Made by a program: the position numbers and the translations under genes. Shown here in pieces: positions 41,808 to 43,913 of a stretch of DNA of 64,000 nt (within the stretch, counting starts at the first letter, position 1; every line of letters starts with the position of its first letter). The DNA lies in contig JAFXZF010000005.1 of the NCBI GenBank assembly GCA_017541365.1, positions 1 to 64,000 of the forward strand, in the 5' to 3' direction. Below the pieces are notes generated by a model. That model did not search any database. It was not told the origin of the DNA and saw only the letters and a program-made list of their open reading frames with translations. The DNA is from Prevotella sp. (GTDB lineage: Bacteria > Bacteroidota > Bacteroidia > Bacteroidales > Bacteroidaceae).

Positions 41808-42920
41808 CTACAAATCGCCTATTGGCACGTCGCGTAGTACCACCTTGCCACCGTCTATCACCACGTTGTCGGGAATGGTGGTGAGTGCAAATGTCTTGAT
41901 GAGCGGATTGGCCCACTGCGACTCATCACTCAGCATGGTGACGCCTGAGGCATCGCAGCGTCCCCTCATGTTCTCTGCTGCCTTTTTGTCGGCATCGAGA
42001 CATATGGCCATCACTCTCGTCACGGGCTTTGCCTCTGCCTTGTTTTTCTTCATGATGGTAAGGGGGTCGCCGCTTCTTTGTCTCGCTGCAAGGCGTCGTA
42101 GCATGTTCTGGCTGTCATAGCTCCATGATGCGCATGTCATCACTACGGTGACACCCTCTTGCAGCATTTTCTCGCTACAGTTGTTGCCGTCGATATCGGT
42201 AGTCTCAAAGTGTTCTATCCTGTCGCCCACCGTCAGCGTTCCCATGGCAGAGAGTTGGTTATACAATCGCTTGACCTTCACGTTGTCAGGCGATTTTTTC
42301 ATCATGGTCTGAAGAAGGTTTACCGCACACTTCACGTCAGTGTCAGTGTACGAGAGGTATTGCGACCTGACGAGCCACAACAGTATCTCATCTGCATACT
42401 GTCCTGACTGCACGGCATCGGCTGTAATACGCTTCATCTCAGTGGGTGTGGCATCCAGATGTTCCGTTCTGAAGAGTGTAAAGTCCTCATTCACTTTGGT
42501 GCCCTTCACCTCTACCTCGCGCAGGCGCGCTGCGTCACCTTTTATAGAAATACTCGCTCCAGGTTCTACGAACACCGGCAACTGTGAGTAATTAGGAAAC
42601 ACCATTATCAACGTTCCCTCGCGGCTAATCTCTCTGTCATACTCAAATCTTCCGCCATGTACCGTGATAGTGTCAATGCCGTCGATAGTGCCGTCGGTGC
42701 TATATACATAGAACGTCGCCTGATTCATGTGAAGCAGTCTGCCCTCTATGCTCACCTCGTCACCACCGCCGGAGCAGGAGGATAATATCAGCAGTAAGAC
42801 TGCTGATATAAATTGAAAATTGAAAATTGAAAATTGAGAATTACGATTACAAACAGACTTGCTATAAGCCTTTATTTGCTTGAAAGTATCAGATAACTTC
42901 GTGCAAATCATAATTTTCAA
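41808..42920 (-). CDS. DUF4369/thioredoxin-like lipoprotein whose 5' end lies in a repeat element
   Basis: 370 residues as an open frame. The functional part begins at a lipoprotein signal FISAVLLLILSSCSGGGDE (Cys about 49), then a DUF4369-like N-terminal domain (about 55-150; SIEGRLLHMNQATFYVYST) and a thioredoxin-like C-terminal domain (about 240-370) with MTCASWSYDSQNMLRRL. In the CxxC position only one Cys remains, so redox activity is doubtful. The first 40 residues (MKIMICTKL...; SQFSIFNFQF) are encoded by the inverted-repeat element at 42811-42943, which supplies the only ATG codons. The true start is therefore uncertain. Confidence 0.7.
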   Translation of the reverse strand: MKIMICTKLSDTFKQIKAYSKSVCNRNSQFSIFNFQFISAVLLLILSSCSGGGDEVSIEGRLLHMNQATFYVYSTDGTIDGIDTITVHGGRFEYDREISREGTLIMVFPNYSQLPVFVEPGASISIKGDAARLREVEVKGTKVNEDFTLFRTEHLDATPTEMKRITADAVQSGQYADEILLWLVRSQYLSYTDTDVKCAVNLLQTMMKKSPDNVKVKRLYNQLSAMGTLTVGDRIEHFETTDIDGNNCSEKMLQEGVTVVMTCASWSYDSQNMLRRLAARQRSGDPLTIMKKNKAEAKPVTRVMAICLDADKKAAENMRGRCDASGVTMLSDESQWANPLIKTFALTTIPDNVVIDGGKVVLRDVPIGDL

Positions 42921-43038: not shown

Positions 43039-43095
43039 GCGGTGTGCCGCGAGCGGGACTCGAACCCGCACGACCGTTTCGGGTCAAGGGATTTT

Positions 43096-43787
43096 CATGC
43101 TACTCCTGCTTTCACACAGGCCATCTAACGTGAGATGTTGTAGTCTGGACTATTTCTTCACCATGCCCTATGGAGGGTTTAGGTGTTGCCTGTATAGTCT
43201 CTACGCCATTTACAGCATCGGGTAATGCTGATTTAGTGAGCCATCGCCTTCCCCGATGTCGCCATCAAGGAGGTTTCTGTTTGTTAGGGCAATTCTACAT
43301 CACCAGTTTCCTGATGAGCACTCTTGTTTAGTCCTCGGTAATTGTCTGTCAATGCATGACAGTTAGGACAAAGCAATTGCAGGTTTTCTATCCTGTTGTC
43401 ACTGTTATCACCATTCACGTGGTGCAGTTCCAATGGTATTTCCTTCTCCTGCCATTGAGATAATCCACAACATTCGCATTGTCTCTCCTTCAATCCTTCT
43501 CTTAAAAGCCTATTCTTTAGTTTGTAACTTTGGTAGTAGGAACCTTTTATCAAGATTTCCTTTATATCAGTTACTTTCCTTGGCTTAAACTTCAATCCCA
43601 CATTCCATCCCTGTCCTGTGAAATGAGAAGTGTCCAGATTAAATTCTTCTATTGCTCTGTGTATAATCCTGTAATTTCCACCTGTTGGTTTCAAATTAAG
43701 CATCCTACAAACCGAAGCAATACTCCGAGACATGCTTACCGCTGTTTCATATTCTTCCTTTGTATGTTTCATCTCGAGAACCTGTTA
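43096..43787 (-). ncRNA. Group I intron in the tRNA-Leu(UAA) anticodon loop
   Basis: About 692 nt. Conserved core elements on the minus strand: R element GGCGTAGAGACTATACAGGC (43189-43208 region) and S element AAGAAATAGTCC (about 43147-43158), whose GACTA and TAGTC form P7. Near the 3' end are P9-like hairpins (CATCT/AGATG; CCTG...CAGG). The intron ends in G (43096), as group I introns do, and the 5' exon ends in U with a possible P1 partner AGGTTC a few bases into the intron. The ORF sits in the 5' part. The exact 5' splice base needs RNA evidence. Confidence 0.85.
43284..43772 (-). CDS. HNH homing endonuclease encoded in the intron
   Basis: 162 residues, starting 15 bases into the intron. 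The N-terminal half (about 1-70) looks like a DNA-recognition region with a helix-turn-helix-like SMSRSIASVCRMLNLKP. The C-terminal half is a zinc-braced HNH nuclease: CECCG, then LELHHVNGDNSDNRIENLQL (HH, N) and LCPNCHALTDN (final His and Cys pair). Expected to cut intron-less tRNA-Leu alleles and so spread the intron. The stop codon is about 75 bases before the R element. More AT-rich than the neighbouring housekeeping genes. Confidence 0.88.
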   Translation of the reverse strand: MKHTKEEYETAVSMSRSIASVCRMLNLKPTGGNYRIIHRAIEEFNLDTSHFTGQGWNVGLKFKPRKVTDIKEILIKGSYYQSYKLKNRLLREGLKERQCECCGLSQWQEKEIPLELHHVNGDNSDNRIENLQLLCPNCHALTDNYRGLNKSAHQETGDVELP

Positions 43788-43851
43788 AAGTCCCTCGTGT
43801 CTACCAATTCCACCATTGCGGCAGCCATTATGGTGTGCTTAATAAAGCGAG

Positions 43852-43913
43852 TGCAAAGTTACGAAAATGAGAGCAAATAACAAAATAAATTCGTTTATTT
43901 TTTATTTGCCGAG
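43852..43913 (-). repeat. Promoter-bearing repeat, diverged copy 3 (tRNA-Leu promoter)
   Basis: On the minus strand: CTCGGCAAATAAAAAATAAA, an AAACGAATTT-type core, TTTTGTTATTTGCTC, then CGTAACTTTGCA. It follows the same order as the copies at 9242 and 27558, at roughly 75-80% identity by eye. Confidence 0.55.

Follow-up and report, generated by a model that had tools for sequence, protein, structure and literature searches.

A split tRNA-Leu(UAA) gene in Prevotella

A 64,000-nucleotide (nt) stretch of DNA from Prevotella sp. (contig JAFXZF010000005.1, positions 1 to 64,000; hereafter ‘the window’) carries a transfer RNA (tRNA) gene, tRNA-Leu(UAA), that is divided by an insertion with an open reading frame (ORF) for a putative HNH endonuclease. 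Comparative analyses support the identification of this insertion as an HNH-bearing group I intron in a Prevotellaceae-like genome. All of its parts lie on the minus strand. The 5ʹ exon (43788..43822) comprises 35 nt and ends in GGGACTT, and the 3ʹ exon (43045..43095) comprises 51 nt and begins with AAAATCCC. When the exons are joined, ARAGORN folds them into an 86-nt class II tRNA-Leu(taa) with the anticodon loop CTTAAAA, and the insertion point between CTT and AAAA falls between anticodon bases U34 and A35. An earlier note made from the sequence had described these two halves and an insert of about 692 nt ending in G. The description is exact: the exons occupy 43822-43788 and 43095-43045, and the insert (43096..43787) measures precisely 692 nt with G as its last base.

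The predicted spliced tRNA is identical in all 86 letters to the uninterrupted genes of two related genomes (locus L188 in G028 and L189 in G008), and the 3ʹ exon accordingly equals the 3ʹ half of these intron-less genes. In the two genomes the uninterrupted tRNA resides 196 nt and 156 nt, respectively, from a homologue of the window gene at 41808-42920. The earlier note had also singled out an A-C mismatch in the acceptor stem for checking. This feature is ordinary, because the same GCCGCAA...TCGCGGC arrangement is found in six of the seven uninterrupted tRNA-Leu(UAA) genes examined, and we regard it as native to the gene. ARAGORN run without its intron mode misses the split tRNA in the window.

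The insertion is predicted to fold as a group I ribozyme

An alignment of 13 ribozyme cores, the window included, was used to evaluate covariation in P2, P3, P4, P5, P5a, P6, P7, P8, P9 and two further hairpins inside P9. Both sides vary at 28 of the 50 pairs, and 98.2% of all cells are paired, versus 30.4-46.9% with the 3ʹ strands shifted out of register. This control leans toward the fold because the structure was drawn from the same sequences, and a model from which the window is held out offers a fairer test. The P3 5ʹ strand (TTGCC, 43288..43292) pairs with GGCAA at 43190-43186 and crosses P7 as a pseudoknot; four of its five pairs vary on both sides, with variants that include TTGCC/GGCAA, CTCCC/GGGAG and TTTCG/CGAAA. 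The two strands of P7, which are the R element GACTAT (43194..43199) and the S element ATAGTC (43148..43153), are paired and invariant in all 13 rows, and the complementarity that the earlier note had seen between R and S is thereby upheld.

Other elements of the core differ in how much variation they display. The P2 hairpin CATCAG-GAAA-CTGGTG (43301..43316), which is both coding and structural, shows two-sided variation in some row at six of six pairs, with 91.0% of cells paired. P5a (43251..43270) and P6 covary, the former at 7/7 counted pairs. The P8 stem-loop (43159..43185) has four pairs, one of which varies on both sides, and the two pairs of P5 do not vary in these cores. The P9 domain (43099..43144), as aligned among the 13 cores, is closed by ACUAC/GUAGC and encloses the two inner hairpins; its outermost pair is A-C in four rows, namely the window and three others. 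At the 5ʹ splice site the terminal U pairs with a guide G (ACUU/GAGU), and the intron ends in the expected final G. Both features are invariant, and therefore yield no covariation. Taken as a comparative result, the alignment supports a group I fold for the window intron that includes the P3/P7 pseudoknot.

The held-out model, R1, was built from 13 relatives with the window left out, although the window was still in view when its structure was drawn, and some of the relatives are close. R1 matches the window once in 64 kb, from the P3 5ʹ strand to the start of P9 (43140..43296; 161.5 bits, E-value 8.8e-32). Across 51 further loci it produced 50 matches at E-values of 0.1 or below, distributed over 47 of the loci. 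One match is to L016, the sole locus among 20 that Rfam calls Intron_gpI, which ties the core in the window to known group I introns. A permissive Rfam search also returned group-II-D1D4-3 at 24.7 bits (cut-off 32), and this candidate identity was rejected because the covarying fold is that of a group I intron.

An HNH reading frame in the P1 loop

The HNH ORF reported in the earlier note is real. It encodes 162 amino acids at 43284..43772 (read 43772-43284), lies within the P1 loop and has its start codon at base 16 of the intron. Matches to Pfam HNH_3 (PF13392) and HNH (PF01844) are narrowly above their cut-offs, and the match to PHROG 10822 (HNH) is strong (8.4e-49). The putative zinc-binding and HNH residues C99, C102, H117, H118, N130, C135, C138 and H139 are invariant in 25/25 aligned proteins. 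The ratio of nonsynonymous to synonymous divergence (dN/dS; NG86, first 148 codons) is 0.078 against locus L005 and 0.079 against L010, and several other pairs are saturated. Ratios of about 0.08 over a long divergence, together with the invariant residues, indicate that the protein is still selected, and to judge from these codons the ORF is under purifying selection. A sequence search of PDB returned no match to the protein, and nothing similar was found in plasmids.

The internal guide GAGU, which forms the 3ʹ strand of P1, lies inside the ORF (43320..43323) and occupies the same place in relatives. It pairs with exon ACUU at 43791-43788, and leaves a U-G pair at the splice site. A P1 extension is also possible, in which GGUUCUCG (43775..43782), located just 5ʹ of the start codon, can pair with CGAGGACU (43330..43337, paired as 43337-43330), located near the end of the ORF. 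The energy of this duplex in the window is -14.5, versus -8.8 ± 2.7 for shuffled sequences. Among 29 loci entered into this calculation, 26 gave a value. The extension is much stronger in several relatives with a second ribozyme type described below (for L015, -26.9 versus -10.7 ± 2.7), and it is no better than about the shuffled mean in L098, L090, L102 and L217, in the last of which the guide was mis-picked. In the ORF-less introns of Lak phages the guide, GAGUGC, is situated close to the exon, whereas in the window it is found near the ORF end. This displacement indicates that the P1 loop is where the ORF lies.

The final 13 codons, together with the stop codon, double as the guide, P2 and the P3 5ʹ strand. 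Between the window and L005, synonymous differences at codons with conserved residues number 43 of 126 in the body of the ORF versus 0 of 14 in its tail (codons 149-162), and the tail holds only 0 to 2 synonymous changes over the ten pairs among five sequences. The AlphaFold model is confident for the body, with a mean predicted local distance difference test (pLDDT) score of 85.2 over all residues, but not for the tail, where the last three blocks score 63, 53 and 47. A ribosome that finishes the ORF would have to open P1, P2 and P3, from which we infer that splicing and HNH synthesis compete within one RNA.

Alleles among related genomes

A set of 199 genomes near G004, with G004 included, was used for comparison. 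The earlier note had proposed to look for intron-less alleles in related strains, and these are common: 112 of the 199 genomes have the anticodon arm uninterrupted, allowing no more than one mismatch, and G004 has no such arm. The other 87 genomes were left untyped and may have different tRNA sequences. In the 81 genomes for which the position of the uninterrupted tRNA was compared with that of the neighbour-gene homologue, the distance is up to 400 nt in 23 and 400-5000 nt in 45, and the tRNA lies elsewhere in 13. Synteny was also assessed through the 365-amino-acid upstream gene, whose homologues were found in only two of the 199 genomes, with the uninterrupted tRNA on another contig in both.

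We distinguish ribozyme type A, which is that of the window, from a more cyanobacterial-looking type B, a label assigned by eye. An exact pattern for the type A core recovers three of the 199 genomes (G001, G015 and G118). In the wider order, type A was recovered in one of 393, which is G001 itself, under a strict filter that may lose weak matches. G001 and G015 carry the intron beside the same neighbour gene as in the window, and the tRNA locus of G015 contains masked bases. In G118 the ribozyme is kept and the ORF has been lost, leaving an intron of 251 nt with a few of the end codons, and no HNH relative was found in this draft genome. A homing cycle would be expected to produce just these states: uninterrupted alleles, introns with HNH and introns without HNH.

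No intact second tRNA-Leu(UAA) gene was found in the draft genomes G001-G004, G015 and G118, in which the two halves are the best matches and the four weaker contiguous matches that were typed are tRNA-Leu(caa). The interrupted gene is probably the only tRNA-Leu(UAA) of the genome from which the window derives.

A wider HNH family at tRNA-Leu(UAA)

A protein search yielded 3742 relatives, of which 120 were listed, and 24 of these were combined with the window protein to build model A1. Scans with A1 were evaluated for the best 80 of 544 confirmed loci in GTDB genomes and the best 80 of 570 in IMG/VR. Because A1 favours proteins with a ribozyme-written tail, this sample leans toward kin of the window. 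By an automatic test, the HNH gene is inside or no more than 200 nt from tRNA-Leu(UAA) at 136 of the 160 loci (70/80 from genomes and 66/80 from viruses). The genome loci consist of 30 in introns in the sense orientation, six in antisense, four beside an intron-bearing gene and 30 beside an intact gene; the corresponding viral numbers are 21, two, one and 42, with the proviso that some viral contigs are near-copies and that phages often carry tRNA arrays. Once near-copies are removed and six loci are placed manually, 137 distinct proteins remain, of which 121 are located at tRNA-Leu(UAA). The rarity of a random gene adjoining this tRNA is an arithmetic expectation rather than the outcome of a control with another HNH family. 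The combination of group I ribozyme, HNH and tRNA-Leu(UAA) described in the earlier note stands, and the window intron belongs to a large family associated with this tRNA rather than being a lone case.

Judging from record titles, the hosts include Bacteroidota, Patescibacteria groups, Gammaproteobacteria, Myxococcota, Chloroflexota, Armatimonadota, Bacillota and Actinomycetota, and relatives also occur in phages. Ribozymes of types A and B share the insertion site and bear this one HNH family within their P1 loops (11 of type A, 26 of type B and one unassigned among 38), and in six other rows the HNH gene is located just upstream of P7. On a tree of the 137 proteins, for which 24 rows were dropped and the bootstrap had not settled, transitions between in-intron and free-standing states number at least 14, and well-supported branches force four of them for the free-standing group. 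Ribozyme type requires three changes on the same tree. We conclude from these distributions that an HNH lineage is associated with tRNA-Leu(UAA) and has switched partners repeatedly, combining with different ribozymes on more than one occasion, and cleavage by this lineage would fall at tRNA-Leu(UAA).

Several members of the family merit separate mention. Six gammaproteobacterial tRNA-Leu(UAA) introns (L052, L058, L061, L065, L070 and L076) carry the HNH gene on the antisense strand. In type B introns L015, L017, L018, L020, L021 and L023, an element resembling TATCTTTGCC or the sequence TTTGC is present just 5ʹ of the HNH start; on the consensus that we take to apply, this perhaps represents a promoter belonging to the intron itself. 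In Pseudonocardia (L051 and L074), an HNH relative resides beside a tRNA-Leu that is read as tag rather than taa.

Proposed mechanism and alternative explanations

The exons, the covariation, the R1 matches and the HNH matches agree, and they bear out the central proposal of the earlier note that a group I intron with an HNH endonuclease is located in tRNA-Leu(UAA). In the mechanism we favour, a mobile group I intron interrupts the gene between U34 and A35, and the transcript would fold into a ribozyme in which exon ACUU pairs with guide GAGU as P1. To judge from its anatomy and covariation, this ribozyme would excise the 692-nt intron and leave an ordinary tRNA. The HNH ORF sits in the P1 loop, closed by the putative P1 extension helix, and runs through the guide and P2 into P3, such that a ribosome completing it would unfold the ribozyme and each RNA would either splice or make endonuclease. 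The position of the HNH gene, the uninterrupted alleles and the preserved HNH residues suggest that the protein would cleave tRNA-Leu(UAA) genes lacking the intron, close to where it inserts, after which repair would copy the intron into them. We assign a probability of roughly 0.86 to this reading as a whole, which combines a mobile group I intron, mutual exclusion of splicing and HNH synthesis, homing by the HNH protein, and an HNH lineage tied to tRNA-Leu(UAA).

We also consider it somewhat probable that, throughout bacteria and their phages, a single HNH lineage is dedicated to one essential tRNA, tRNA-Leu(UAA). Its members would be free-standing next to intact tRNA genes, free-standing next to ORF-less introns, or within at least two ribozyme types, in several positions and both orientations. 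Such a lineage would constitute a natural series of the stages by which endonucleases and group I introns have been proposed to become mobile introns, in which the tail of the Prevotellaceae protein is written by the ribozyme and translation and splicing exclude each other.

Several observations count against the overall reading. Both intron splicing and DNA cleavage by the HNH protein are predictions made from sequence. P4 has only two supported pairs, one of them covarying, and the P1 extension of the window lies only about two standard deviations below shuffled sequences. Rfam RF00028 (Intron_gpI) does not match the window at its gathering threshold or at E-values up to 5. The earlier note had held that a missing group I covariance hit would tell against the intron, and Rfam alone would have given that outcome, whereas the held-out R1 model recovers the intron. 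An Rfam match is a library label rather than a structural feature. The failures of Rfam and of ARAGORN without introns would together make the tRNA appear absent, which means that introns of this kind are easily missed. A fold search of PDB gave no match at E-values of 0.001 or below, the best being the HNH restriction enzyme EcoKMcrA at 0.013. Furthermore, 24 of the 160 family loci fail the automatic tRNA-Leu(UAA) test, although ARAGORN in intron mode places four of these (L016, L128, L147 and L156) at tRNA-Leu(taa); the two Pseudonocardia loci beside tRNA-Leu(tag) are also among the 24. A second tRNA-Leu(UAA) copy may exist elsewhere in the genome of the window. Finally, the variable arm shared by intron-bearing loci is not evidence of exon co-conversion, because two intron-less species (L188 and L189) have the same arm, and that argument was dropped.

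The age of the association also bears on mobility. Synonymous divergence (dS) of the HNH gene is 1.13 to G001 and 1.04 to G015, compared with 0.57 and 0.51, respectively, for pckA, and a faster neighbour gene is near saturation. These values suggest vertical descent, with an intron long inherited here rather than newly gained, and recent homing into the lineage of the window is not supported. Mobility, which the earlier note offered as one possibility, fits the uninterrupted alleles and the patchy occurrence; a recent arrival in this lineage does not fit. It could be argued further that the intron is fixed and immobile and that its HNH gene is a remnant that no longer drives homing in this lineage, as the shared intron and neighbour gene of the window, G001 and G015 and the loss of the ORF in G118 would allow. 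We consider this unlikely, given that the codon ratios and invariant residues point to a protein still under selection and that the gene is uninterrupted in more than half of the relatives.

Shared ancestry could also explain why HNH genes accompany this tRNA, if the association were an old neighbourhood rather than a choice of target. Some clades are indeed uniform, for example eight Hymenobacter rows with HNH upstream of the tRNA. However, the placement varies among inside sense, inside antisense, upstream and downstream, over many phyla and phages, and the many changes between in-intron and free-standing states on the tree make this explanation quite improbable. It is very improbable that the HNH protein persists chiefly as a maturase that helps the ribozyme splice: ORF and ribozyme do overlap in the window, but the G118 ribozyme persists with no HNH relative found in that draft genome, and members of this family also occur free-standing next to intact tRNA genes that have no intron. 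That the tRNA is a broken copy with a non-splicing insertion, and a functional gene elsewhere, is scarcely tenable; the source genome is known here from a 64-kb window, but the introns covary across 13 examples, no intact second copy was found in intron-bearing relatives, and the exons are identical in sequence to intact genes.

Relationship to known systems

Group I introns of cyanobacterial and plastid tRNA-Leu(UAA) genes are inserted between U34 and A35 and normally lack an ORF. The window intron shares this insertion site and differs in carrying a 162-amino-acid HNH ORF. The more cyanobacterial-looking core is type B, by eye, whereas the window core is type A, and relatives of type B carry the same HNH family.

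The closest precedent is the tRNA-fMet intron of Synechocystis PCC 6803 with I-Ssp6803I. Passages of the published accounts give this intron 655 nt and a 150-amino-acid product (PMC1995217), and place the endonuclease ORF in P1 with a 61-nt overlap with P1/P2 (PMC3073962). On those passages, the two systems are alike in being group I introns of similar size in the anticodon region of a bacterial tRNA with the ORF in P1. However, the Synechocystis intron involves fMet and a PD-(D/E)XK enzyme, whereas the window involves tRNA-Leu(UAA), an HNH protein, an overlap that reaches P3, and many bacterial and phage kin.

Collaborative homing, in which free-standing endonucleases and ORF-less introns act together, is described in part of a 2014 review as one route to mobile introns (PMC3984707). 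Free-standing HNH genes beside ORF-less introns at one tRNA (L013, L029, L039, L042 and L147) resemble that arrangement as described there, but here one HNH lineage is found free-standing, within introns and with intron-less genes at the same tRNA in many hosts. The review states that there is little evidence of bacterial group I introns moving between species and that phage introns are known only in protein genes, and it contains neither the spelling ‘tRNA-Leu’ nor ‘Bacteroid’ (PMC3984707). In the present family, a single conserved site is found uninterrupted, with an intron plus HNH, with an intron lacking HNH, or accompanied by a free-standing HNH gene, across many hosts and phages, which makes interspecies movement and collaborative homing testable by cutting assays and trees. 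Searches of open-access literature on the topic turned up no Bacteroidales case, no tRNA-Leu(UAA) intron that bears an HNH gene and no HNH lineage linked to tRNA-Leu; the earlier note likewise knew of no described Bacteroidales case.

The Lak megaphages, which are phages of Prevotella, contain kin of the window intron. The tRNA-Leu(UAA) genes of Lak-C1 (L002:2380-3114) and Lak-B1 (L003:2372-3115) each hold two ORF-less introns, one in the D loop (308/309 nt) and one in the anticodon loop (340/348 nt), and R1 matches both; the joined exons fold as tRNA-Leu(taa). The anticodon-loop introns are ORF-less relatives of that in the window (R1, 84.4 and 76 bits), and the presence of two introns in the phage tRNA-Leu is a difference. 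Portions of the original report call Lak tRNA introns enigmatic and do not name group I there; they give Lak-B1 one tRNA intron in Table 1, and the text places it in tRNA-Tyr for the baboon phages (PMC6784885). For BOGUAY, part of the published description notes tRNA-Leu-TAA genes split by putative group I introns, and tRNAs interrupted in a similar way are noted in Thiomargarita (PMC4853749).

Additional observations

The region upstream of the tRNA (43823..43880) contains TAACTTTG and is presumably its promoter, on a consensus that we assume. A TA..CTTTG-like element is likewise located 5ʹ of the tRNA in L005, L006, L007, L010 and L218. The 3ʹ end of the tRNA, CCGCTCGCGGCAC (43056-43044), recurs 93 nt downstream at 42963-42951, and between the two copies the 19-nt motif TTGCTGAAAGCAAGAAACA occurs twice. 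G015 is without the extra stretch that holds this repeat and these motifs.

The permissive Rfam search also gave a weak match to LOOT RNA (24.4 bits, cut-off 46.4; window 43185-43054), which we treat only as a lead. The match is best over P8, from CCUAAACCCU to AGGGCAUGG, and LOOT may be related to the 3ʹ part of a group I intron. Contig L157 holds a second R1 match (L157:634-769, minus), on the strand opposite to the first. A 5-kb UNVERIFIED record that is classed as a phage (L004, MT840028.1) carries a Prevotella-like tRNA-Leu(UAA), and may be a chromosome fragment. In the crAss-like phage cr115_1 (L001:2970-3184), an unannotated, ORF-less type A core is located upstream of the terminase gene.
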